A stretch of DNA of 64,000 bases from Candidatus Thiodictyon syntrophicum (GTDB lineage: Bacteria > Pseudomonadota > Gammaproteobacteria > Chromatiales > Chromatiaceae), in NCBI RefSeq assembly GCF_002813775.1, contig NZ_CP020370.1, positions 3,187,501 through 3,251,500 of the forward strand. The letters run 5' to 3'. The notes below the pieces were generated by a model, which saw only the letters and a program-made list of their open reading frames with translations, had not been told where the DNA came from and searched no databases. Of this stretch, positions 1 to 12,554 are shown piece after piece. Each line of letters opens with the position of its first letter. Position 1 is the first letter of the stretch. A program made the translations under genes and the position numbers.

Positions 1-2686
1 TGCTGACCAGAATAGTGTCGTGGGTCTGGCCGATGCGGTCGATGCGCCCGATGCGCTGCTCAACTTTCATCGGGTTCCAGGGCAGGTCGAAGTTGACCAA
101 CAGGTCGGCGGTTTGCAGGTTCAACCCCTCCGCCGCCGCGTCAGTGCACACCAGCACGTCGATTTCGCCCTTCAGGAACCGCTGTTTGATGGCCTCTCGG
201 TCGATCCCAGTGAGTCGACGGGTCCGCGCGTTCACATAGGAGCCACCCTGGCCCGAGTAGGTCCCGATCAGCATGTGCGGATCGGCCTGTCGCAACCTCC
301 GGACGATGTCCGTTAGGGTGTCGTAGAAGCGGGTGAAGACCACTGTTTGGGCGATGCGCCCGCCGGCACCGCGACGCTTGTTCAAGTGCTCCAAGAGGCG
401 CTGCATCTTCGACGAGGTCCCGCTGAGGTCCCGCAGCCCGGCGAGCATCTCCAAAAGCCTGTCCCGCTCCCAGATCAAGTCCGCGGAGGCGCGCCCCGCC
501 AGGACCAGACCCACCGCCTCCTCGTCGCCTTCGCCCCCGTCGAGCAGGTCGGTGAGGGACAACTCGTCCAGGTCGATTTCCTCGGCCGGCGCCACATGCT
601 TCAACGTCGCTTCGACCTTCTCCCGGCGCCGTCGCAGGGACTCGCGGATCGCGAACAGGCTGGACGCGAACCGCAAGCGCAGGAAGCTCAGGATCATGCC
701 CAGGGCGAAGCTGGCCTTCTTGCCCTGGCTACCCTTGCCAAGCTGCGCCGCCAGGCCCAGGCAATAGCCCTCCAGCCGGTCGTAAGCCGCTTGCTCCTGG
801 GCGGTGAACGCAATGGGCATCAGTGGCAGCACCACGCGCCGTGCCAGATTGGCAGTGAGCTTGCCGCGACGACGATACAGTTCCAAGAGCGGGCGCGTGT
901 GGCGCAGCATGACCCGCGACAGGGGCGCAGCCGCGAAGGCCAGCCGCCGCACCCCCTCCTCGCCGCCCCCCTGTGAAACTGGGGGCGGCTCGCCGGACTC
1001 AAGCCAGGCATCCACATCGAAGCGCGAGAACTCGTCGATCACGGCCTCCTGCACGTACTGCCACAGCAAGGGGTCCTGTCCGGCCACCGCCGTCACTGCG
1101 CGATGCAGGAAGGCCCATTCCGTGGCGTCCAACGTTTCCCCGCCCACCAGCTTGGCGAGCAGCGCGTAATAGGCATTCGTCAGGCTGGGGTCGAGCTGGA
1201 AATGGCCGACCCGGTTGGTCAGGCGGATCAGATCGGCCACCTCCACGGGGTCCAATTGCATCGGCGTGGCCGTTGCCAGCAGCAGGCAACGCGCTTGGGT
1301 GCGTAGCACGTCCCCTAAGATTCGGTAGAGATTACCGTACCGGGGTTCGGCCCGCGTCCCCTGGGTCGCATTCTTGCGCCGGGCGTAGTGGGCCTCGTCC
1401 ACCAGGGCGATGTCGAAGGGTGCCGCGGCCCGCAACTCGCCGCGCCGTCCAGCCCGCGCCAGCAGACCGCTGGAGACGATGACCAAGTCCGGCTCATACA
1501 GAGACTTGGCGGGCCGCTCCTCGGGTCCCGGGAGCAGGTACTCATGCCGCGCGGACGCCCCGGTCAGGGCGCGGCCGAAGGGCAGCAGGAACTTGCTCGC
1601 CATCTCCCGGTGCCACTGGGGCGTCAGGCTGGCCGGCGGTGCAATCAACACCCGGCGCACCAGGCCGGCCAGATAGAGCGCCCGGATCGCCAGCCCCGCC
1701 TCAATGGTCTTGCCCAGCCCCACCTCGTCGCACAGGAGCCAGCTATAGGGCCAGGTGTCGATCAGTCGCTTGGCCACCACCGCCTGGTGGGGCCAGGGCT
1801 CCACCGGCGCCGTCACCATGCCCACGTACTCCCCATTCGGCAACCGCGGGCCGTCCCGCAACAGGGCGAAGCGCAGCCGCTCGAAGGCCGAGGGTGCAGG
1901 TACCGCCAAGGGGATTGCGCTGGAACCGTCGACCTCCAGGGGCCGATCGGACGCCCCGGCCAACTGGATCAAACGTTGACGCACCGCCTCCGGCAGGGTC
2001 AGCACCCGTAGGCTCGGGTTCTGGTTGCCCCAGGTGCGTTTGAAGCGGGCCTCGGCATCGTCCGCGCGCTGGCGATTCTCCGCACCGGTCCAGTCGCGGT
2101 GCAGGTCGATGTTCTCGGCATTCAGGACCAGTGCCGTCCGCGATTCGTTGAAGGAGCCGGTGGCATAGAGCCGATCGCCCGCGGCATCCCGAAAGACGGC
2201 CCATTTTTCGTGCACATAGCCGTCGGCGGCGGAATCGGCGGCGAGCGGTTCTCCGGTTTGCTCATGCACCCGGAAGGCGACCCGCACTTCCAGGCGCCCA
2301 TGGGCGACCATCCAGGCCAACAGGGCCACGCCCCGCTGTTCGGCCTCGGGCCACTGCTCCGCCTGGTCCAGTGCGTCGTTCAGGAAAACTGTCAGTCGCG
2401 CCTCGTCCCCGGCGAGGATGGCGGCCACGTCGTCCCCGTGCATGTCCGCGCCCACCACCATCCGGGCGTTCCCTCCCTGGGCGACGAAGGCTGAGAATCC
2501 TTGGGACGCGACCGCCAGCGACGAGGACCGAAAATAGCCGGCGACCCGGTCATAGCCCGTTGCCCGGCTCAAGGCGGGGATGTAGAACTGGTGCAGGATG
2601 TCGACCGGTTGGTCGCCCGCGGCATGGCTGGACGTGCTGTAGGTCAGTTGCCAGGGGTAGTCGCGCAGGCGGGGTGGATTGTCCAT
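1..2686 (-). CDS. PLD-nuclease / SNF2-family helicase fusion, anti-phage protein (3' end outside window)
   Basis: A large DEAD/SNF2-type helicase with an N-terminal phospholipase-D-like nuclease domain; 895 codons are visible and the C-terminus lies beyond position 1. The N-terminal part carries an HxK element (YVHEKWAVF, H159/K161) followed by GSFNES near 177-182, the usual half of a PLD (HKD) active site. The helicase core shows motif I DEVGLGKTIE (about 320-329), motif II DEAH (430-433), LLLATATPM, CTDAAAEGLNLQ and QRIGRIDRIGQ near the left edge. I chose the ATG at 2686; an in-frame GTG at 2725 would add 13 residues. It is the last visible gene of the defence operon. Proteins of this make-up recur beside DUF499 and DUF1156 proteins in defence islands. 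Cutting or translocating foreign DNA is inferred from the family, not visible here. Confidence 0.88.
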   Translation of the reverse strand, partial: MDNPPRLRDYPWQLTYSTSSHAAGDQPVDILHQFYIPALSRATGYDRVAGYFRSSSLAVASQGFSAFVAQGGNARMVVGADMHGDDVAAILAGDEARLTVFLNDALDQAEQWPEAEQRGVALLAWMVAHGRLEVRVAFRVHEQTGEPLAADSAADGYVHEKWAVFRDAAGDRLYATGSFNESRTALVLNAENIDLHRDWTGAENRQRADDAEARFKRTWGNQNPSLRVLTLPEAVRQRLIQLAGASDRPLEVDGSSAIPLAVPAPSAFERLRFALLRDGPRLPNGEYVGMVTAPVEPWPHQAVVAKRLIDTWPYSWLLCDEVGLGKTIEAGLAIRALYLAGLVRRVLIAPPASLTPQWHREMASKFLLPFGRALTGASARHEYLLPGPEERPAKSLYEPDLVIVSSGLLARAGRRGELRAAAPFDIALVDEAHYARRKNATQGTRAEPRYGNLYRILGDVLRTQARCLLLATATPMQLDPVEVADLIRLTNRVGHFQLDPSLTNAYYALLAKLVGGETLDATEWAFLHRAVTAVAGQDPLLWQYVQEAVIDEFSRFDVDAWLESGEPPPVSQGGGEEGVRRLAFAAAPLSRVMLRHTRPLLELYRRRGKLTANLARRVVLPLMPIAFTAQEQAAYDRLEGYCLGLAAQLGKGSQGKKASFALGMILSFLRLRFASSLFAIRESLRRRREKVEATLKHVAPAEEIDLDELSLTDLLDGGEGDEEAVGLVLAGRASADLIWERDRLLEMLAGLRDLSGTSSKMQRLLEHLNKRRGAGGRIAQTVVFTRFYDTLTDIVRRLRQADPHMLIGTYSGQGGSYVNARTRRLTGIDREAIKQRFLKGEIDVLVCTDAAAEGLNLQTADLLVNFDLPWNPMKVEQRIGRIDRIGQTHDTILVS

Positions 2687-2731
2687 CGTTGAAACACCTG
2701 CTTGGTTGAAGTGCTCTGCGTCCACGACCCG

Positions 2732-3178
2732 TCACAGATAAACCCGTAAATCAGGTATTGGCGTAGTCGCTTCACAGTGCACGATAGCCCTGACGCGAAT
2801 ACGATGCTGGTTTTCCCATCGCTCCTTCTCCGCTTTCGATGGGATCGCATTGCTGACCACAAACGCCTTCTCGACGACTCGTCCCCGGCCGCACCTTCGC
2901 AGCATTTCAATCAAGTCCATATATTCCTGTCGATGCTGCTTGACGTATGCCAGTTGCTCGTAGGCGTGCGCAATATCCCTCCCCTTCAACTCGACCAACA
3001 GGGCTGCGGCGCGGTGGTTGTCCAGAAAGAGAAACAACCCGTCGCATTTCGGCTTGCCGTCATTCAATACGCATCCGTCGATCACCAGGGCCTTGGCCTG
3101 CTCGCCCGAGCGAATACCCAGCGTCACCTTCTTCCCCTGCTCCGCCAACGTCAAAGCTCCTACGCACAAGGCGTGCAC
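2732..3178 (-). CDS. small PD-(D/E)xK nuclease-like protein, partner of the upstream AAA ATPase; 5' part cut off by an in-frame amber codon
   Basis: I do not recognise this 148-residue protein by name. It contains D46 followed by VELKG (E63, K65), a spacing typical of the PD-(D/E)xK nuclease core, inside predicted beta strands. The open frame begins at a GTG (3178). The same frame continues upstream across a TAG (3188-3190) to an ATG at 3229 that overlaps the stop of the AAA gene as ATGA. The native start was therefore probably 3229, and either the amber is a nonsense mutation or translation restarts at the GTG. It lies 45 bases before the helicase start. ATPase-plus-small-nuclease pairs are a common defence layout (OLD/Gabija/Septu-like logic), but assignment to any one system would be a guess. 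Confidence 0.6.
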   Translation of the reverse strand: MHALCVGALTLAEQGKKVTLGIRSGEQAKALVIDGCVLNDGKPKCDGLFLFLDNHRAAALLVELKGRDIAHAYEQLAYVKQHRQEYMDLIEMLRRCGRGRVVEKAFVVSNAIPSKAEKERWENQHRIRVRAIVHCEATTPIPDLRVYL

Positions 3179-3225
3179 CTTACCGAACTAATCGCAGACG
3201 CAATGTTCGAAAGACGCGACATCGA

Positions 3226-4443
3226 TCATGTCCGGCGCTCCCATTCGATGTCCCGCATCTTGTCGTATAGCCGCGTCAAGTCATTGAAATATTGCAGCAG
3301 CCGGTCATCCAGGAGTCCGAGCTCGGCGTCCAGCAAGTCCTGCTTTCCATCGGTGGTCGTCAAATAAGCCGTGACATCGTCCGGCGACAGGGGAAGGATT
3401 TTGTCGACTTCTTCGTCCCACCTGTAATAAATCGAGATTCGGTGTCGCTTCAGATGGTTGTTAATCGCCTCGACGATGTATGGGCTATGCGTCGTGACGA
3501 TAAATTGCGTGTTCGGGAACGTCCGCAACAAGTCGCCTACCACCCGCTGTTGCCAGGACGGATGGAGATGAAGATCGACTTCATCGATCATAACGATCGC
3601 TTCGGTCGTAAGCGGATCATCGCGTTTCGGATTCCCCCCGGCCATGCGTCTGCTCAGGTCGAGGGCCAAACCGAGCAATGTCTGGTAACCGTCGCTCAAT
3701 TGTCCGATGCTCAGATACTCGCCACCTTGCTTGACGACAAAGCGCAGCGGGTTCAGCTCGATATGGGGCTCGGAAATATCCGGGAATAGAGATGCAATCG
3801 CGCGGCGCGCAGCATCCAACTCCGGCAAGGTCACGTCGAAATCGCGACGCTCCTTTTGCAACCTGCTCTCTTCGTTTTCTTTATTGTAAAACCAAACGAA
3901 CGCCGATCGGAAACGGCTATCGGCATTCAAGGCATCCGCAAGCGCGTCCAAGCGGGAGTGTTGCCTTGGGAAACCCTTGCGACTCAATGGCAAGTCGAGA
4001 AGTGCCCGGCCGACGCCGTAGTAAACGAATAACGGCACAGTAAAATTTTCGCCTGAGTTGAATGGATCAATGATTTCCTTGTCCAAATATCGCTCAAGCT
4101 CCCGCAAGCCGAGACCGGACCCGGCGAGCAGCGTGGTCGCCTTGCTCTTATCCCGGCGTTGCGTTCTGTCCCATGCCAGGCCAGACACCATTTCGAGAGT
4201 GACGCGGGCATACGGCGCCAATCGATTTCCGGTTTGACGGATATCCCCATTCTTCTTGAACGACAGGCCCGACAGATTCGGCAGATAGGTGAGCACCGCA
4301 CCAAGCCCGATAGCAATGCCATCGAGTATCGTCGTCTTACCCGACCCGTTCGGACCGACCAGCAATGTCAGGCGTCGTCCCAAACCCAAGGTCACCTCCG
4401 GCTTGGCACGGAAATTCTCCAGTCTGACGCTCTTCAGTCGCAT
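3226..4443 (-). CDS. AAA family (SMC/OLD-like ABC-type) ATPase
   Basis: A 405-residue ATPase of the AAA_21/AAA_23 type. Visible motifs are the N-terminal MRLKSVRLENFR strand, Walker A GPNGSGKTT (30-38), a signature-like LSDGYQ (249-254), Walker B IVMIDE (283-288) followed by VDLHLHP, and the H-switch TTHSP (H319). This is the arrangement of overcoming-lysogenisation-defect and related defence ATPases, but no TOPRIM domain follows, so the nuclease role must fall to a partner. The next gene overlaps it by ATGA and carries a candidate PD-(D/E)xK site. A gap of 51 bases separates it from the DUF1156 methylase upstream. Sensing of phage DNA or protein is inference. Confidence 0.85.
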   Translation of the reverse strand: MRLKSVRLENFRAKPEVTLGLGRRLTLLVGPNGSGKTTILDGIAIGLGAVLTYLPNLSGLSFKKNGDIRQTGNRLAPYARVTLEMVSGLAWDRTQRRDKSKATTLLAGSGLGLRELERYLDKEIIDPFNSGENFTVPLFVYYGVGRALLDLPLSRKGFPRQHSRLDALADALNADSRFRSAFVWFYNKENEESRLQKERRDFDVTLPELDAARRAIASLFPDISEPHIELNPLRFVVKQGGEYLSIGQLSDGYQTLLGLALDLSRRMAGGNPKRDDPLTTEAIVMIDEVDLHLHPSWQQRVVGDLLRTFPNTQFIVTTHSPYIVEAINNHLKRHRISIYYRWDEEVDKILPLSPDDVTAYLTTTDGKQDLLDAELGLLDDRLLQYFNDLTRLYDKMRDIEWERRT

Positions 4444-4494
4444 GAGTCACCACCGTCGAGAATCGAAAAGTGAAGGATTTCGGGGGACGGCGCA

Positions 4495-7400
4495 TCAAGA
4501 CAACTGCCGCAACCCGAAGAGTAGCCCCTCGGCCTCCCGGCGGGCGGACTCGTCGGTCATCTCCCGCGCCCAGACGGCGAGCAGGTCGATGACACGCCCG
4601 CCGGAGTCGGCGGCCTTGGCGGCCAGGTATTGGCGAGCCACCGGCAGTTCGCCGCGGCGATAGGCGAGCAGCAGGCCGTGCAGGCGATCCCAATCGGTCT
4701 GGGGTGTCTCCAGGCGGCGGGGGTCGCGCTCCTCGGGCAGCGCCAGGCGCAGTTTGGACCCCTTGCGGGCGAGTGGTGCCGCGAGGCCGCGCTCCTCGGC
4801 CTTGGCTGCTTGGGCACGGCGTCCGCTGGCCTCCTGGTTGATGCCGATTGAGCGCTGCCCGGGCTCGATGCGGTAGCCCCCTGGCTTGCCCTCCAGGCGG
4901 ATGTTCATGGATTTGGACAGGCTCAGGACCTCGTTATAGGCGACCTCGCCGAGCCCGTAGATGCCGTAGACTGTCAGGGCCATGGCGGTTTCGGGGTCCA
5001 GGTCATCGACCTTAAGCCGGCCCTCGGTGATGCGGTGAATCTGGTGCTCGGCCACCACCCGGCTGGCCTCGTTCATTGCCCGGATCGGCGAGACTTGCTC
5101 GTCGCCGTCCATGACCGGCCAGTGTTGAGACAGCACATGCAGCGCTCGGCCGTAGGAGGCGACCATCTCGTCCACCGGGTTCAGGCGCAGGGGCTCGAAC
5201 TCCCGCAGGCCGTCTGCGACCGCGTCGCGAATCTGGTGCTGCACGCCTTGGCCGCCGAGACCGGTCCAGGAGGCTTGGAAGTCTGACGCCAGCGGGCGTT
5301 TGCGGCAGGCGATGAAGATGGAACTGGCGGCAGCGGCAACATTCATCTGGTGTGTGGAGTAGGCGCCCTCCGATTCCACGGGGAATGCCGCCGTAATATC
5401 CCAACCAGACTCGATTAGCGCTTGCGTTAGCGCCTCCCAAGCATCCTGGGACTTATGAGTGAACATCACTGTCATAATCCCCTGCTCTTTCAGGACGCGC
5501 CGGCATTCGCCGAAGATCTCGCGCATCCGGCGCTCGTACTCGACGTGAGATTGATCGACGCCACCGTCACGGGTCGGGTTTGCTACGGCCTCGTCTGCCT
5601 TGTTAACGAGTCTGCGGGAGAAAATCTCCGGATACAGATGCTTTAACGTTCGACGCTGCCACACATAGAAGAAATCGGAGAGCTCCCCGTATTGAACGTT
5701 ATCGTAGTACGGGGGGTCCATGCATACCAGATCGACGCTAAGGTTTTTGACGCTTGCCAAATATGCTCCGGTACCATTGAGAATTCGAAGAGACCCCTGA
5801 TCGGGCCGACCAACGCGACGATGATTGGGAGCAACCAAATCGGAGATTCCCTCGTAGGCATCAATAACCTGACTCAGACCCCATGCGGCCCCAGAGTTTG
5901 GGCCGGTGAAGATCATTTCGCCGAAAGTCCATTTCAGTGAAAAATTATGGCTGCCGAATGTCCCTTTCACTATGCCTCGGGTAAACTCCCAGCGAGTCAT
6001 TTTGCTGTTATAGTCGGCACCCTTGTCGATGGCGAATTGCAGGTAGGTCACTACCGCTCGCCCTTTTTCCTTGCCAAGTTGTGAAAGAATATCAGGCGTC
6101 AGTCCTTTAAGCCCTTCAATTAGCGAAATATGCCCTAGTAACTGGCGGGGCGTGAACAGATCGCACCACCTCGTCATACCATATAACCGGTGTCCGCGGT
6201 TGTAATTGGAGTCCTTCGGAATATCCTCGGTGGGAATCAACCCCTCTGCTTCCCACGCCGGCCATTTCTCTTTTAGTCCCCGCTCAGCCTCTGCGATGGC
6301 AGCCAAGTCACGGGCATTGGGTGGGCGGAAGAAGCGGACCTTCTCCGTCTTGATCTCACCGGCTCGCTCGCCAGTCTTGTAGCGTTGGGGCTGGCCGTGC
6401 TTGTCGAGCTTGGGCTGGAGTCGGACCGCGACCACGGTGTAGAGCCGGTCGGTCCAGGTGCCACAGGGCGATTCGCCGCGGGCCTGGGCCTTGATCTCGT
6501 CGCCGGGAATGCCCTGTTTGCAATGGACGCAGGTACCGACACCGCGGTTCACGAAGGCCCCGTTCGGGTCTTCGCCGTTTGGCCCCCGGCCTTTGTGGAC
6601 ACGGTAGGTCTCGAAGTGGACCTTCCCGTCGGTGGCCCGGCCATCGGTCAGGACGCGCACGCCCCACGGATCGCCGGCCTCCTTCGACAGCCAGCAGGTG
6701 TTCAGCAACGGCACGTCGCCGCCGCAATGATGGCATGTGACTTGGCGGGCAAAAAGATAAGTTGTGACGCCTTCTTTTGAAAACTCCGGGAGAAACTCAG
6801 GGCACCGAGAGAGATGCCTCTTGAGGGCCGCTTCTTCGTCGGTCGGCAACGGACCCGTGCGTTGGAAGGCGTCGGGCAGTTCATCGTCCAGTATGGCGAG
6901 CAGCTTTCTGCCCCAGTACTGGATGTCGGTGGACAACTCCGGTCCGAAGCGTGCCGGATAGTCCAGGGTCGCATACAGAATGGTCGTGGCAACCGGGTTC
7001 AACTCATTGGCAATGACGTTGTGGCCCAGGCGCAGGGCCTCGAAGGGAATAGAGCCGCCGCCGGCCGTCGGGTCGAGGACCGTCAGCCCACTTGGTCTCG
7101 GGTCAACTGGGCTGGAAAATGCGCGCTCGTACCCGTACAAGTTCGGCACCCTGACATCCGTAGCTTTGGCGAGGTCCATAAGGGCCTTAAACCAAGCCGG
7201 ATCGCCCATAACCCGCCGCACCGGCAACAACGCCCCGAGCATCGGCATAGGTTCGAGCAGGGGCCTGGACTCCTGTGCCCACCGCAGCAGCACAGGATCT
7301 TTTGCGAGCGATGGGTCCTTGTCCCGCATCCGCGCGATCAGGGCGCGGTTCTCCCCACGCCGTGCCTGCTCATCCCGCAGTGTGTTCAGAACCTTGTCAT

Positions 7401-7740
7401 CGACCGCAAGGGACTCACAGCCGCCCGCATCGCGCTCCACCCGCCCCGGCAGGTCGCCGGTTAGGGTCCAGGGCTCGCCGTCGACCACGGCTTGTATTCG
7501 CTCGATCCCGAGTTGGCGGACGAACAATTCCGGGTCGGCATCCCAAGGGGCCAGGGACGCGACGATCGCCGCCCGGCTCGGTGTCAACGGGCGGCGTGCC
7601 CACCAGACATGCAGCCTATTGACGGGCGGCGCCTTGCCTGTATCGCGCTCGCGGATCGTTTCGGCCCCAACCTGATGGCAGGGGAAGCCATGCTCGATGA
7701 GCCGCTTGTCGGTGACAACGTCGGGGCGCTCTTGTTCCAT
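4495..7740 (-). CDS. DUF1156 adenine-specific DNA methylase with zinc ribbons (COG1743-type), anti-phage associated
   Basis: This 1081-residue protein opens with the DUF1156 signature (RLIEHGFP and LHVWWARRPL, residues 13-52). The S-adenosylmethionine site VLDPTAGGGS lies at 221-230 and the N6-adenine catalytic DPPY at 675-678. Two CxxC pairs (CHHCGGD near 335 and CVHCKQG near 405) look like zinc ribbons inserted between the methylase motifs. Proteins of this family are paired with DUF499 ATPases and a PLD/helicase in defence islands. By analogy with BREX and DISARM methylases, it probably marks host DNA so that the other parts act on unmarked phage DNA; that role is inferred. All key motifs are intact. 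It is preceded by a damaged gene pair and followed by the AAA gene. Confidence 0.92.
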   Translation of the reverse strand: MEQERPDVVTDKRLIEHGFPCHQVGAETIRERDTGKAPPVNRLHVWWARRPLTPSRAAIVASLAPWDADPELFVRQLGIERIQAVVDGEPWTLTGDLPGRVERDAGGCESLAVDDKVLNTLRDEQARRGENRALIARMRDKDPSLAKDPVLLRWAQESRPLLEPMPMLGALLPVRRVMGDPAWFKALMDLAKATDVRVPNLYGYERAFSSPVDPRPSGLTVLDPTAGGGSIPFEALRLGHNVIANELNPVATTILYATLDYPARFGPELSTDIQYWGRKLLAILDDELPDAFQRTGPLPTDEEAALKRHLSRCPEFLPEFSKEGVTTYLFARQVTCHHCGGDVPLLNTCWLSKEAGDPWGVRVLTDGRATDGKVHFETYRVHKGRGPNGEDPNGAFVNRGVGTCVHCKQGIPGDEIKAQARGESPCGTWTDRLYTVVAVRLQPKLDKHGQPQRYKTGERAGEIKTEKVRFFRPPNARDLAAIAEAERGLKEKWPAWEAEGLIPTEDIPKDSNYNRGHRLYGMTRWCDLFTPRQLLGHISLIEGLKGLTPDILSQLGKEKGRAVVTYLQFAIDKGADYNSKMTRWEFTRGIVKGTFGSHNFSLKWTFGEMIFTGPNSGAAWGLSQVIDAYEGISDLVAPNHRRVGRPDQGSLRILNGTGAYLASVKNLSVDLVCMDPPYYDNVQYGELSDFFYVWQRRTLKHLYPEIFSRRLVNKADEAVANPTRDGGVDQSHVEYERRMREIFGECRRVLKEQGIMTVMFTHKSQDAWEALTQALIESGWDITAAFPVESEGAYSTHQMNVAAAASSIFIACRKRPLASDFQASWTGLGGQGVQHQIRDAVADGLREFEPLRLNPVDEMVASYGRALHVLSQHWPVMDGDEQVSPIRAMNEASRVVAEHQIHRITEGRLKVDDLDPETAMALTVYGIYGLGEVAYNEVLSLSKSMNIRLEGKPGGYRIEPGQRSIGINQEASGRRAQAAKAEERGLAAPLARKGSKLRLALPEERDPRRLETPQTDWDRLHGLLLAYRRGELPVARQYLAAKAADSGGRVIDLLAVWAREMTDESARREAEGLLFGLRQLS

Positions 7741-7867
7741 TGTTCCTATAGGCTCCTTGAATGGCTAGGTTGGTAGGCCTCGTCCCGCTCACTGCATCTT
7801 TTGCTCAGATGGCACCCGCGGGAACTATCGCCTGATACGACATCGGCTGCTCGTGTGGCGCCGCGTC

Positions 7868-8026
7868 TCAGTCCGCCTCAGCCGAAAATGTCTCTTGGAC
7901 AATCTCGGCGAGCATGTCGGCAATGACCAGTCGGAATGCCAATCCTGTGGCAATCCCTTCATTGATGGTCGCTGGTCTGCAAAAACGGCTGACGTGATCC
8001 AAGTCTGGGACCTGATCGCCCTTCAC
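7868..8026 (-). CDS. truncated partner protein (DHVSRYC-type N-terminus only)
   Basis: A 52-codon frame that starts at a GTG overlapping the TAG stop of the preceding gene (8026), so it is placed for coupled translation. Its N-terminus (DLDHVSRFCRPATINEG, then TGLAFRL) resembles, from memory, the start of a longer conserved hypothetical protein that normally follows genes like the 190-residue one upstream. After AFRL the resemblance ends and the frame stops within about 20 codons. I read it as the 5' remnant of a once longer second gene of the pair. A start at the ATG at 8062 is also possible. No function is known to me. Confidence 0.4.
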   Translation of the reverse strand: MKGDQVPDLDHVSRFCRPATINEGIATGLAFRLVIADMLAEIVQETFSAEAD

Positions 8027-8598
8027 TACAGCGCATCTCCCGGATTCTTCGCTTCTGCCCATCGGCGAACGCCATAGGGCTCAGCAAGTCGCATGACGCT
8101 GTCCACCGTAGCGCTTCCTGAAACCCGAGCGATCTTGTCCGGTCGCTTGGGATCGGGAGCAAAAATAACGAAACGGATGTCACCGTCTCCCACGAATTCC
8201 ACGGCAAAATGTTCGCCTTTCGTCCGGCGCCATTGGATACGAACGTTTCCCTCGTGCGTCAGCACTACGCTGGGATAGGCTAGCTCCGGGTGGTCCGCCA
8301 GAAAGGTCATCACATCCATCACCGATGCAAGGGCGGGGGGCGCCTGGTCGGGCTGCTCTTCCCGACTGATTTCGAGAAGAGCGAGCAATCGCTCAGCCAG
8401 TCTTTCACCGTAGGCAAGCCGCGGGTGACGGCGAACGCCGTCTATCAATTCCGTTAACGAACTTTCACGATCCGCTGTGGGTCGTGTCGAATCCTCTGGG
8501 ACGGTGCCCCTACACCTTAGGAAATCGGGATTGAGAATTGTTGGGTTGCAGTCCTCGCCGACAACGACGACGGAAAACTCCAAGGGGATAATATTCAT
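8026..8598 (-). CDS. conserved hypothetical protein, possibly a chimera of two families
   Basis: A 190-residue protein of unknown function. Residues 1-37 (PLEFSVVVVGEDCNPTILNPDFLRCRG, abbreviated here) look like the N-terminus of a different family that normally continues after VPEDW (TIGR04255-like, from memory). Here the text changes abruptly after VPEDS. Residues about 45-185 (LAERLLALLE, then YPSVVLTHEGNVRIQWR and RFVIFAPDP) form an alpha/beta domain that I recall as the first gene of a small two-gene cassette. The second gene follows with an overlapping start but is truncated. The pair sits between two core genes of the defence operon on the same strand. A toxin-antitoxin or accessory defence role is possible but unproven. 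Confidence 0.6.
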   Translation of the reverse strand: MNIIPLEFSVVVVGEDCNPTILNPDFLRCRGTVPEDSTRPTADRESSLTELIDGVRRHPRLAYGERLAERLLALLEISREEQPDQAPPALASVMDVMTFLADHPELAYPSVVLTHEGNVRIQWRRTKGEHFAVEFVGDGDIRFVIFAPDPKRPDKIARVSGSATVDSVMRLAEPYGVRRWAEAKNPGDAL

Positions 8599-8673
8599 TA
8601 TTGGTTTCAGTTCTGAAGGCGCAAACCGCCATTGAACAATTGGTGTCGGTACGATGCTCCGGCAACCCTGCCG

Positions 8674-9291
8674 CTAGGCGCGCAGCCGCTCCAGCATGCG
8701 CTCGACCCCTGAGTCGTTGGCCTGACCGCCCAACATGAGGCGCATGCCAGCGACCGCCCAGCGCCGGGCATCGGGGCTGAAGCTGGTCATGCGCGAGAGC
8801 CAGTAGGCGGCCTCCTCGCGGGTGAAGCGCTCGACGCGGCGGGCCATCAGCTCGACGCGGTCCTGGTCGGCGACCCGCTCTTGGAGTCGGAAGATCAGGG
8901 CGAGCTTGGCACCGGACTCCTCGTCCAGCGGCAGGTTGACCCGCAGGCGCAGGCCATCCTGGGTCAGGTAGCGCTGGATCTCCAATGGTACGCCCGACTC
9001 GTCTTGGACGCTCGCGACGATGTTGCGCAGCACCGGCAGACAGCGGCGCAGGTTGTCTCCTGAGACATGCCCCCGCTCGGCAAGTTTACCCTTGGGGCCG
9101 GCATCCGCACCCGACGACGCCGTGGTGTCAACGGACTCTCCCGCGTGGGAGCGGCGTTCTTTTAGAACCAGAACCGGGATCGGCGAGCCTTTCCATTCGG
9201 TAATGCGTAGGACGAACGGTGCCTTGCGCCAACGCGGCTCCAGGTGCGCGCGGTGATGCTCGGCCAGGCTCGGGGTCTTCTTCGCTGCCAC
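8674..9291 (-). CDS. 205-residue protein of the DUF499/DUF1156 defence cassette, unrecognised (DUF3780-like position)
   Basis: This 205-residue soluble protein starts five bases after the DUF499 stop codon, so the two are surely co-transcribed and probably translated together. It has a basic N-terminus (MAAKKTPSLAEHHRAHLEPRWRKAPF), a strand-rich middle, and a helical charged C-terminus ending RMLERLRA with a WLSRMTSFSPDARRWAVAGMRLML segment. No catalytic motif is visible. In related cassettes a protein of similar size annotated DUF3780 sits between the DUF499 and DUF1156 genes. Position suggests the same role, but I cannot confirm the family from the sequence. A structural or adaptor subunit for the ATPase is a reasonable inference. 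Confidence 0.65.
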   Translation of the reverse strand: MAAKKTPSLAEHHRAHLEPRWRKAPFVLRITEWKGSPIPVLVLKERRSHAGESVDTTASSGADAGPKGKLAERGHVSGDNLRRCLPVLRNIVASVQDESGVPLEIQRYLTQDGLRLRVNLPLDEESGAKLALIFRLQERVADQDRVELMARRVERFTREEAAYWLSRMTSFSPDARRWAVAGMRLMLGGQANDSGVERMLERLRA

Positions 9292-9296
9292 TGCTG

Positions 9297-12200
9297 TCAG
9301 TCCTGGGTGAGTGTCTTGACCAGCGGGCAGTCGTCCCGCGGGTCAGTGATGCGAATGCGCGCCTGGGTACGTTCGTTTTGGCTGACCAGTCCGGCAAGGA
9401 CCTCGAACAGCTCGCCGAGGCGCTTCATATCCTCCGGCGGGCAATCCTGCAACAGGAGGCGCATGCGGCCGCCGCCTTGCAGTTGCAGTTCCACCAGGTC
9501 CAACACGTCGAGCTTCGAGCTGGCACCGCGACCGTAGAGGCCGCCGATGCGGCGGAGGAGGGGCAGCAGTCGGGCGGCGGCCTCAGGGCCTTTCAGGTCC
9601 AAGTATCTGGGGTCGATCTTGATCCAGCCGCGGCGCGCGGCCTCGGCGGGGGAGAGGATGACATCGTCCTTACCGACCGAGTGCAGGATCGCGGTCGGCC
9701 CTTGCACGAGCGCCGACGGCGCGGCCTCCTGCTCGGGGGTGCCGCTGTAGGTCAGGGCCTTGGCCTCGCGCACGGCATTGTCGATGGCAGTCAGGATGTC
9801 CGACTCGGGTATCTCGCCGTGGGCGCCGACCACCTTGTCGATGATCTGGAAGACATAGGCCGCCGGTTCTTCCCGCATCGCATCCGCCACCCAGGTTTCG
9901 ACGCGCGCCGGGTCTGCGATAACCGCCCCGCCGAGCCAGCCGCGCTGGTTGGCGCCGGGCAGGGTGACGATGGCCCAGCCCGGCGCGCTCAGGTCCAAAT
10001 CCAGGGGCAGGGTGTCGGCATCGCGGCTGTAGATCGCTTGCGGCTTGGCGCTTTGTTCGTCCTGCATGCGGAACAGGCACCAGGCGCCGCGAGTGACGCC
10101 CTCGCGGACGATCTGGTCGAAGATCGTCGCTGCTTCGAGGACGGGCCAACGGCGGTTGACGGCGAAGTTGGTGCGCAGTTGCTCCAGGGTAGGGGTCTGA
10201 CCGGCGCCGAAGAAGAGCTTGCCGAGCAGGTTGAGCCCCTCTTGGGTGCGGGCGCGTTCCTCCGTGATCAGTTCGCCATCCTCGCGTAAGACGCGGTGGA
10301 TTTCGGCGATGATGGGGGCGCCGCCTTCCCCGCCGGCAGTGTGGATCTCCTTGCGCACCACATGCCCTGACGCGGACGGGTACCAAAGCCCATCGTATTG
10401 CTGGGTGATGGTGGTCTGAAGGGCCAACTCGCGCTCTTTGGTCTTGTCGCCGAAGCCCTCCTCGCTCAGTTGTTGGGGCTTGATGCCGTAGTTCTCCGGC
10501 TTGTCCCGCAAGCGACCGCGGGCGATGACATCGCGGGCGAGGTCGTCCAGGCGCTGGTGCGACTCTTGGGCCTTGGCAACCCGATCCTCGTTCCAGATTT
10601 CGCCTTGGACATGGACGGTGCGCGGAACCAACAGGAATACGAGGTTCTGCTCGATGCGCGGCCGGTTTGGGCCAACCGTCGTCACGAACGCCTCGGCGTC
10701 GATCTCGTCGGCGCCCAGCGTCACCAGACCCAGCGTGGTGCGCCCGGTCTTATCCTTGATGTGCTCAGGGTGAGTCACGTCGTGGGCAACGTGGAAGGTC
10801 GGATCGGTGCGGATGATCTTGCGCGCGGCGGCATCGAGGAAGTCCGTGACCTGACCCTTGCCCAGGCTGCCGCGGATGGACGCCAGCGCACGGTTGATGG
10901 ATGCGTCGAGACTGGCATAGTAGCGCCCGTACTGGACGCTGTGGCGCAGATAGAAGGCGCCGCGGTCGCTGTCTTCGATGGTCTTCAGGGCCGACTCCAC
11001 CTGGGACGGGGAAAGGCCGGGGAAGCTGATCTCGAGGAGTGCATCGCGCTCGCCGATCCCGAACAGAGGGGTCCCGAGCCCCTCGTGGCGCCCCACGAGG
11101 CTGTGCAGGAAGACGGTCTTCCAGGCGTACTCATGGAACGGATAGCCCTCGGGGTGCTTGTTCTTGCGGTCTGCCTCCTCCGCACGACTGGCGCCGCCGA
11201 CCAGGGTGGCAGTGTCCACACCGCCGATGTCGGTGTTGAGGATCGGCAGCAACTCCCCGCCCCCGGTGCGGCTGATCAGTTCGTTGACGATGCGCGCATC
11301 CCGCAGGTTCAGGTGGCAGGTGTGGATCATCGGCACAGGCTGGCGCTTCTCCCACAGACTGCGTACGGCCAGCGACAGCACGCGCAGGACCCCACGGGTG
11401 CCCTGGAAGTTGGCGAGCGTCGCCATCTTCTGGTTCAGGAAATCGACGAACGTGGGGTGGAAGGGATACAGGTCGCGCATGGTGGCGCGGTAGTCCTCCC
11501 GGCTCGCCTGGTCCGGGAGCAAGTCGGGGGTCTTCTGGTAGAGCGCCCAATAGTCGGCGACGGTCTCGGCGCCGGCCGCCTGGTCGACGCTTAGGAACAG
11601 GCGTTTCGCCAGGACCCGGGAGATCTCGTTGGCCTGGACCGGGACGACGCCTGTAGCATCGCGCGAGACGACGCTGAGCACGCCGGCCTGCGCGCTCTGG
11701 GCCATGGCCACGGCCTCTTCCTCCGTGACCTGCTCGCCGCGGATCGCGCTCAGCAGCCGGACCAATTCTTCGGTCTGGGTGGCGAAGGCGTCCGTCTGGC
11801 TCGCCAGGGTCAGCACCACGGCGATGTTGGAGTGACCGCGGGCATAGCCGTTGAGGGCCATCAGGAAGGCGGACAATTGGTTTGCGCCCTGGGGGTGGGC
11901 AGCGGCCAGCCGAGCCGCGTACTGGGCCAGCTCGTCGAGCAACAGCAGGGCCTTGCGCTTGTCGAAAATGGAGTCCAAGAACGCCTTACCTGGCGCCGCT
12001 CGGGAGGTAGCCTCGGTCTCGACACTCCGGTAAAGGGCCTCCCCGCCGATTTGGAAGGCGATCTCGCCCCAGAGGGTGTAGGGGACCAGCGCGGCGCCAT
12101 GTGGTTTGTGGACCGGGATCTCGTCGCCGGCGATGCCGACCACCTGCACGGTCCCCGGCTCATGCAAGGCGGTGGCCTCGAGCACACTGGCGTCGATGCT

Positions 12201-12554
12201 TGGCGCGGCGGCATCCGCCAGTTCCCGGCCGCGAAATCCCAGGTGAGTCAGCGCAATCAGGGTGTGCGTCTTGCCGCCGCCGAAGGCCGTTTCGAGCCGA
12301 TGTATGGCGGGGACGCCGTTGTCCCCGGCCAGGCGCGCCATGACCTCGGAGATGACCATGCGCATGCCGTCGGTGGGGAAGGTTGCCTGGCGGAAAAACT
12401 GCTCCGCGTCCGTGTAGAGGTTGGTCACGCTGCTCGTCCGGCCCCGGTAGTAGTCCATGACCTGGGACAAACTGGCCGTGAAGATTTCCGGGTTGAAGGT
12501 GCCGGTGAGCAGGTCCGCACGTGGCGTGCAGGTGTCAAGTATCGATCGCATCAA
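9297..12554 (-). CDS. DUF499 AAA+ ATPase (COG1483-type), anti-phage associated
   Basis: This 1085-residue ATPase has a Walker A of the DUF499 form, ETAFGGGKTHT (GGGKTHT at 92-98), and Walker B ALLLLDE (202-208) followed by LAQYAARL. The preceding RMVISEVMARLAG and FFRQATFPT segments are also typical of the family. The C-terminal half ends with a long regulatory or nucleic-acid-handling region. It is the first large gene of the defence operon, with the 205-residue gene five bases downstream. DUF499 proteins are known genomic partners of DUF1156 methylases; their role is unproven, perhaps energy-driven recognition or translocation. The start ATG at 12554 is followed at once by a second candidate M. 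Confidence 0.92.
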   Translation of the reverse strand: MMRSILDTCTPRADLLTGTFNPEIFTASLSQVMDYYRGRTSSVTNLYTDAEQFFRQATFPTDGMRMVISEVMARLAGDNGVPAIHRLETAFGGGKTHTLIALTHLGFRGRELADAAAPSIDASVLEATALHEPGTVQVVGIAGDEIPVHKPHGAALVPYTLWGEIAFQIGGEALYRSVETEATSRAAPGKAFLDSIFDKRKALLLLDELAQYAARLAAAHPQGANQLSAFLMALNGYARGHSNIAVVLTLASQTDAFATQTEELVRLLSAIRGEQVTEEEAVAMAQSAQAGVLSVVSRDATGVVPVQANEISRVLAKRLFLSVDQAAGAETVADYWALYQKTPDLLPDQASREDYRATMRDLYPFHPTFVDFLNQKMATLANFQGTRGVLRVLSLAVRSLWEKRQPVPMIHTCHLNLRDARIVNELISRTGGGELLPILNTDIGGVDTATLVGGASRAEEADRKNKHPEGYPFHEYAWKTVFLHSLVGRHEGLGTPLFGIGERDALLEISFPGLSPSQVESALKTIEDSDRGAFYLRHSVQYGRYYASLDASINRALASIRGSLGKGQVTDFLDAAARKIIRTDPTFHVAHDVTHPEHIKDKTGRTTLGLVTLGADEIDAEAFVTTVGPNRPRIEQNLVFLLVPRTVHVQGEIWNEDRVAKAQESHQRLDDLARDVIARGRLRDKPENYGIKPQQLSEEGFGDKTKERELALQTTITQQYDGLWYPSASGHVVRKEIHTAGGEGGAPIIAEIHRVLREDGELITEERARTQEGLNLLGKLFFGAGQTPTLEQLRTNFAVNRRWPVLEAATIFDQIVREGVTRGAWCLFRMQDEQSAKPQAIYSRDADTLPLDLDLSAPGWAIVTLPGANQRGWLGGAVIADPARVETWVADAMREEPAAYVFQIIDKVVGAHGEIPESDILTAIDNAVREAKALTYSGTPEQEAAPSALVQGPTAILHSVGKDDVILSPAEAARRGWIKIDPRYLDLKGPEAAARLLPLLRRIGGLYGRGASSKLDVLDLVELQLQGGGRMRLLLQDCPPEDMKRLGELFEVLAGLVSQNERTQARIRITDPRDDCPLVKTLTQD

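Follow-up and report, generated by a model that had tools for sequence, protein, structure and literature searches.

What are genes that lie between the core genes of an anti-phage operon: fixed parts of one machine, or cargo that can be exchanged? The question is raised by a locus at one edge of the window, the 64,000-nucleotide stretch of the Candidatus Thiodictyon syntrophicum genome analysed here (C1:3187501-3251500; the genome has 7,738,984 bases in 3 contigs). An earlier sequence-only reading had described four core genes forming a recurrent cassette, with two further gene pairs nested between them, and had proposed that all of them are co-expressed and act jointly. The core genes do recur, being found across 80 related loci, and the coordinates place both pairs between core genes on the same strand, with short gaps or an overlap. 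In our reading, to which we give a probability of roughly 70%, the locus is an anti-phage operon that resembles restriction-modification systems, is centred on DUF499 and belongs to a subtype bearing DUF7680, and the cargo slots on either side of its methylase gene take exchangeable accessory effectors. Here joint A is the junction of the DUF499 and DUF7680 genes, slot B that of the DUF7680 and methylase genes, and slot C that of the methylase and helicase genes. The locus has eight open reading frames (ORFs), all on the minus strand and in the order given by the sequence-only reading (lengths in amino acids, aa):

9297-12554, minus strand: DUF499 AAA+ ATPase, core gene 1, 1085 aa (Pfam DUF499 2.3e-23, 82.5 bits, cut-off 23)
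8674-9291, minus strand: DUF7680 protein, core gene 2, 205 aa (Pfam DUF7680, PF24728, 1.2e-37)
8026-8598, minus strand: 190-residue ORF in slot B, a deletion fusion (tblastn against Thiocapsa locus L030)
7871-8029, minus strand: 53-codon ORF in slot B, remnant of a partner gene of about 150 aa with its middle missing (comparison with L030 and Thiocystis locus L032)
4495-7740, minus strand: DUF1156 DNA methylase, core gene 3, 1081 aa (Pfam DUF1156 4.7e-14, 52.7 bits, cut-off 24; N6_N4_Mtase 1.5e-7, 32.1 bits, cut-off 26.7)
3226-4443, minus strand: PtuA-like, OLD-type ABC ATPase, slot C cargo, 405 aa, uninterrupted (AAA_21 3e-27; PADLOC PtuA 1.1e-94)
2732-3244 (open ORF 2732-3178), minus strand: small putative nuclease, slot C cargo (PD-(D/E)XK-like motif by eye)
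1-2725, minus strand: PLD/SNF2 helicase, core gene 4, 5' part (Helicase_C 1.2e-19, SNF2 1.2e-5)

Two cargo slots beside the methylase gene

The methylase alignment was scanned against 84,980 species genomes, the best 80 of 102 related loci were kept, and the core genes were located by profiles built from those 80. Counting a joint as occupied if it exceeds 300 bp, a measure that depends on first-start ORFs and on the chosen cut, joint A is occupied in 2 of 67 loci, slot B in 17 of 73 and slot C in 23 of 59. The nested pairs are thus add-ons and not core genes, as the sequence-only reading had suspected, and gene order across the 80 loci shows that they are far from always present. A methylase tree of 70 rows was built from 67 of the 80 loci and three others, 13 of the 80 being excluded as short or without a known slot. 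All three joints are known for 58 rows, where joint A is never occupied, slot B is occupied in 12 and slot C in 24; parsimony places 0, 8 and 7 changes, respectively, on the tree. Both slots are filled in 10 of these rows and neither in 32. The occupant of slot C changes 17 times over 61 rows, or 13 times over 57 rows when unclassified contents are left out. Thiocapsa L030, the nearest relative by this tree, carries slot B cargo and has an empty slot C, and a Thiocystis metagenome-assembled genome (MAG; L032) has the same composite as the window, with both pairs present and their frames uninterrupted. The cargo is mostly codirectional with the core genes. The methylase gene is therefore flanked by two cargo slots with exchangeable contents, and the pattern is a recurrent one.

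The contents that match a family nearly all belong to defence or toxin-antitoxin families. In slot C, a second DUF7680-type copy in the same genome holds Septu PtuA/PtuB (E e-144 and e-110), L065 AbiLi/AbiLii with RloB, L064 and L089 GmrSD (alone in L089), L070 and L099 Schlafen, and L079 a HicB-like protein; in slot B, L094 holds Abi_2/AbiD, L099 AbiD, and L059 a TIGR04255 gene followed by two further genes. The slot C contents of the Halomonas/Marinobacter group are the same pieces recombined in different combinations and order. HEC-03, an RNA ligase and GmrSD occur together in L086, L087, L090 and L103; G272 has HEC-03 and the ligase without GmrSD, L089 of this group has GmrSD alone, GmrSD comes first in L100, and L084 has RNA-ligase and GmrSD-like sequence only, with no HEC-03. 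No Ptu sequence was found at the L061 locus. Four further occupants were named by eye as VapBC (L068), RelBE (L077), HicAB (L053) and PIN (L096). In L032 the methylase and the ATPase are further separated by some 800 bp (L032:11227-12029) in which all ORFs are on the minus strand.

A similar picture is found within the organism itself, where the methylase/helicase joint is occupied in five of six DUF499 loci. The occupants are the window pair, Septu, an ABC ATPase accompanied by a 195-residue protein, a lone ABC ATPase, and a PIN protein plus a partner; at the sixth locus the joint has no coding-strand gene of at least 90 codons. The PIN-domain pair sits in L029 (G000:C3:349001-368900), a DUF499 system with DUF3780 (8.4e-73) on a smaller contig. 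In another system of the genome a 104-residue ORF, nucleotidyltransferase-like by eye, lies between the methylase and DUF499 (L026:8417-8731).

Damage to the cargo

In the window all four core frames are uninterrupted. Slot B retains a cassette reduced by deletion, and a stop codon breaks the frame of the slot C nuclease, leaving the slot C ATPase as the only whole cargo gene. The slot B genes are best understood from Thiocapsa L030, which has an intact three-gene cassette with ORFs of 227, 310 and 160 residues. Residues 1-55 of the 190-residue ORF correspond to L030:6594-6773, within the 227-aa ORF, and residues 50-184 to L030:7786-8196, within the next, 310-aa ORF (both by tblastn). As a single ORF holds the start of the first L030 gene and the end of the second, it is a deletion fusion; in L032 the same C-terminal part is preceded by a different fusion. 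The 53-codon ORF retains both ends of the third L030 ORF: it matches residues 2-34 of the L032 protein at 59% identity, and its C-terminal end can also be recognised by comparison with the proteins of L030 and L032. No Pfam or PADLOC family was matched by the 190-residue ORF at E 0.01, nor any Pfam, NCBIfam or PADLOC family by the intact L030 cassette where scanned. A search of plasmids with the partner of about 150 aa matched two Rhizobium records (identity about 32%), both hypothetical proteins. The sequence-only reading had called only the ORF after the 190-residue gene truncated, which is correct for that ORF and too narrow, as the description fits three of the four nested genes.

The slot C ATPase resembles the retron Ec78 ATPase (1.7e-32) and PtuA 8ee4 (2e-26) in the Protein Data Bank (PDB). 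The frame of its putative nuclease partner has a TAG at 3190-3188, codon 19 counted from ATG 3244, and reopens at GTG 3178; a genome search likewise returned one TAG in this copy and none in the G374 relative. Uninterrupted relatives (L032:13228-13740, 170 residues; L157:1428-1943, 171 residues) start about 22 residues earlier. The window ORF had no Pfam or PADLOC family match, and a PtuB HNH match was absent for the intact relative as well in PADLOC and NCBIfam. Homologues were found in 1 of 369 genomes in the class sample (the organism's own) and in 3 of 38 relatives, one of them partial; none were found in the plasmids, phages or viral contigs searched. An AlphaFold2 model built from three sequences was unusable, with a predicted local distance difference test (pLDDT) score of 45.5.

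It is possible, though on balance doubtful, that the nuclease is still made by restarting at GTG 3178 and that the slot C pair is functional in this strain. The GTG lies 12 bases past the TAG, the ATPase is whole, and the 148 codons open after the stop have diverged no more than intact copies: the window nuclease is 70.9 and 71.6% identical to two intact copies, which are 70.3% identical to each other, and the ratio of non-synonymous to synonymous substitution rates is 0.15-0.23, compared with 0.21 (synonymous sites are close to saturation). Such a product would, however, miss the first 22 residues of its intact relatives, and no clear ribosome-binding site precedes the GTG by eye.

Damage to slot C cargo extends beyond the window. 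The comparison covered eight ATPase-nuclease pairs of the kinds represented by the window and by Septu (the window, the second own copy, L031, L032, L062, L069, L109 and L157). The nuclease is whole in three (own copy, L032 and L157), the ATPase in five (these three, the window and L109), and no pair has a whole nuclease with a broken ATPase, although four of the eight come from MAGs, in which assembly errors may occur, and a set of eight establishes no rule. In L031 an IS1595 transposase adjoins the broken end of the ATPase gene and the nuclease is reduced to a C-terminal rest. In L157 (G374:C523; L157:1428-3283) an undamaged pair lies beside the last 37 codons of a methylase, all that is left of that gene, so the module can outlive its host operon.

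Such damage invites the explanation that the cargo is passing debris, that is, defence-island insertions that survive where no gene is broken and have no functional link to the operon. The repeated damage (nuclease whole in 3/8 pairs, ATPase in 5/8), the transposase in the L031 slot and the several slots holding nothing but short or minus-strand ORFs of no family (in L031, L042, L059, L062, L069, L081 and L109), which are hard to explain as cargo, are what debris would leave. Insertion without a link to the operon is nevertheless unlikely given that the recognisable contents are nearly all defence or toxin-antitoxin genes, that the DUF499/DUF7680 joint is spared and that the cargo is mostly codirectional. 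Least likely by our estimate, and hardly to be expected, is a single composite machine in which the nested genes are permanent parts, co-expressed with the core and acting jointly with it, for despite the shared strand, the short gaps, the one overlap and the uninterrupted composite of L032, most relatives lack both pairs (300 bp or less in 56 of 73 loci at slot B and 36 of 59 at slot C), the nearest one has only the slot B cargo, and both window pairs are damaged. The nesting that the sequence-only reading described is thus confirmed and generalised. Its three-part machine is not supported as stated for this strain, where a stop codon breaks the nuclease frame and deletions have reduced the 190-residue gene and its partner to remnants; joint action here is doubtful. 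The OLD-like backup finds support in a resemblance, the pair being of the OLD/PtuA-like ATPase-nuclease kind treated in the main text of PMC12839542.

The reading of the locus as a restriction-modification-like operon with two cargo slots has several observations against it. Fisher tests of joint occupancy (A-B 3.8e-4, A-C 2.2e-7, B-C 0.059) ignore relatedness, and an equal-rate chi-square on the changes counted on the tree gives only p 0.022 for the contrast between joints. None of the slots of known state is filled in a clade of 25 Bacillota rows, so the slots are not universal in the subtype. The nuclease frame after the TAG shows no relaxed divergence; its break may therefore be recent, or translation may restart at GTG 3178, or the TAG may be a sequencing error. 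Lastly, the putative HKD/PLD domain at the N end of the helicase is matched by PLDc_2 at 0.0026 and 18 bits, below the Pfam cut-off of 27.

The core genes, DUF7680 and known systems

Searches of Pfam and PADLOC confirmed the DUF499, DUF1156 and helicase families proposed from sequence, identified the 205-residue protein as DUF7680 and showed the ATPase to be PtuA-like. The DUF499 ATPase, which ends in DUF7744 (Pfam 6e-39), matches PADLOC HmaC (1.7e-69) and falls under the curated cut-off of NCBIfam NF042962 for anti-phage-associated DUF499 (150.6 bits against 1200). The methylase matches PADLOC HmaB (9.7e-72) and conserves the DPPY motif. In the helicase, SNF2-rel_dom lies right at the Pfam cut-off (25.0 against 24.9), while the protein matches PADLOC PLD_Helicase (1e-56) and PbeA (1e-60) and has one HKD-like motif, by eye, in its N-terminal part. 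The extent of 1-12554 first given to the locus agrees at the DUF499 end and is too short on the helicase side, where the gene runs 1187 bp beyond the window edge and with the adjoining genome stretch forms a single open frame of 1303 residues. The alignment with the L031 helicase begins at residue 14, so the start may be ATG 2686.

In the class sample of 369 genomes DUF7680 occurs in 5, the own genome counted, and among 38 close relatives in 7. A tree of 19 DUF499 proteins has 14 rows of the DUF7680 type, which come from Bacillota, Proteobacteria and Planctomycetes and group in one clade (support 100/100) that excludes L020 and four other DUF499 proteins of the own genome; branches are long and the deeper branching order is unsure. 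A methylase tree of 10 concurs, again with 100/100 support for the DUF7680-type clade. DUF7680 is accordingly a marker of a subtype of DUF499-centred systems. A shorter form of about 160 residues lies beside the more distant DUF499 of L020 (L020:17051-17536) and also occurs in L116 and L117, possibly a second branch.

The AlphaFold2 model of DUF7680 (pLDDT 91.5) has four strands and C-terminal helices, and gave 0 fold matches in the PDB at E<=0.001 (best E 0.8). A likeness to DUF3780 was suggested by a short match by eye and by the similar fold, four strands and five helices, described in the main text of PMC12839542. The Pfam scan of the 205-residue protein gave no DUF3780 match at E 0.01, and hhalign gave the two families a probability of 0.1 (E 0.56). 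Adding four more distant DUF7680 members brought the score to 19.13, which 1 column-shuffled control in 60 also reached; the real score was reached by 45 of 60 controls for the core set by itself and by 8 of 60 for the short set by itself. A reversed control outscored the real comparison for both the core and short sets, and the positive control reached 97%.

Both PMC7641849 and PMC12839542 class DUF499 as Cdc6/ORC-like, and the former also describes an archaeal operon of a methylase, DUF499 and a helicase-nuclease. The main text of PMC12839542 defines three DUF499-centred types of BREX-related (BR) system, treats pairs of an OLD-ABC ATPase and a nuclease inside such loci as backup effectors of BREX and BR systems, proposes a restriction-modification-like mechanism and refers to an experimental helicase study, which softens the earlier description of the cassette as mechanistically unexplained. 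DUF499-centred systems with nuclease add-ons are thus already published there. The names Septu, PtuA and DUF7680 are absent from that main text, and our literature search found no paper naming DUF7680.

The window has the components that define DUF499-centred BR systems, namely a DUF499 ATPase, an N6-methyltransferase with N-terminal DUF1156 and a Swi2/Snf2 helicase. As in type-2 BR of the main text of PMC12839542, the helicase is probably of the HKD/PLD-SNF2 kind, a small alpha+beta protein is added to the core and nuclease add-ons lie near or within the locus. Unlike type-2 BR, the window has DUF7680 in place of a standalone DUF3780, its ATPase and methylase score better with the PADLOC Hma models than with the PADLOC DUF499 and DUF1156 models, and both fall in a clade apart from the DUF3780 system of the own genome. 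Hma (HmaABC), the type-1 BR of that main text, was discovered through its frequent neighbourhood with Septu type I, as PADLOC 2021 (PMC8565338) reports. It shares the helicase, methylase and ATPase with the window, whose gene order nevertheless differs from that of the own genome's Hma-like loci and which adds DUF7680 and a probable PLD domain at the helicase N end. With Septu the window shares a PtuA-like ATPase in slot C, the slot filled by true PtuAB in the second own copy. Septu was rejected as the identity of the pair since the partner is not PtuB or HNH by any scan and instead has a PD-(D/E)XK-like motif by eye. The dyads of OLD-ABC ATPase and PD-(D/E)XK nuclease in the main text of PMC12839542 are similar in pairing and in position inside a BR locus, and differ from the window in that its nuclease frame is interrupted. 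BREX and type-3 BR were rejected as no PglZ domain was found in the seven operon proteins scanned with Pfam, and DISARM as the resemblance, to DrmD, is in the helicase only.

The stretches of eight relatives contained none of seven flanking window ORFs, so the operon lies at other genomic sites in those relatives. About 8 kb past the helicase a 895-residue ORF (L005:8168-10855; genome C1:3176168-3178855) has a sub-threshold TPR-S sensor match (7e-6).

A possible platform for backup effectors

By analogy with their families, the DUF1156 methylase would mark self DNA, the DUF499 ATPase together with DUF7680 would survey DNA, and the PLD/SNF2 helicase would attack unmarked DNA. The slot genes, which include ATPase-nuclease pairs, type IV restriction enzymes, Abi and toxin-antitoxin-like genes, could then serve as an interchangeable, codirectional second line, most likely when the core fails. 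The genes may be read as a single transcript. They are separated by 5 bp between DUF499 and DUF7680, 51 bp between methylase and ATPase and 6 bp between nuclease and helicase, and the ATPase gene overlaps the nuclease start as set by comparison with relatives. The window operon has 3 promoter-like sites against 1.9 in shuffles, and 15 terminator-like sites on both strands against 8.8 (standard deviation 3.0), counts compatible with one transcript or with several.

We tentatively suggest, at somewhat less than even odds, that DUF7680-type systems are plug-in platforms. The joints beside the methylase would be dedicated docks for swapped backup effectors, exchanged perhaps via recombination within the conserved core genes on either side, and the joint of the ATPase and DUF7680 would stay closed; nuclease cargo would be costly and lost first, its ATPase partner later.

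If the joints are docks, one operon family would provide a natural series in which the same core carries none, one or two cargoes of different families. Such a series would permit a direct test of whether inhibition of the core triggers the cargo, which published surveys of BREX add-ons leave to be inferred, and genes found inside such operons would not be read as core subunits. DUF7680, a subtype name absent from the literature searched, provides a marker for finding these systems.

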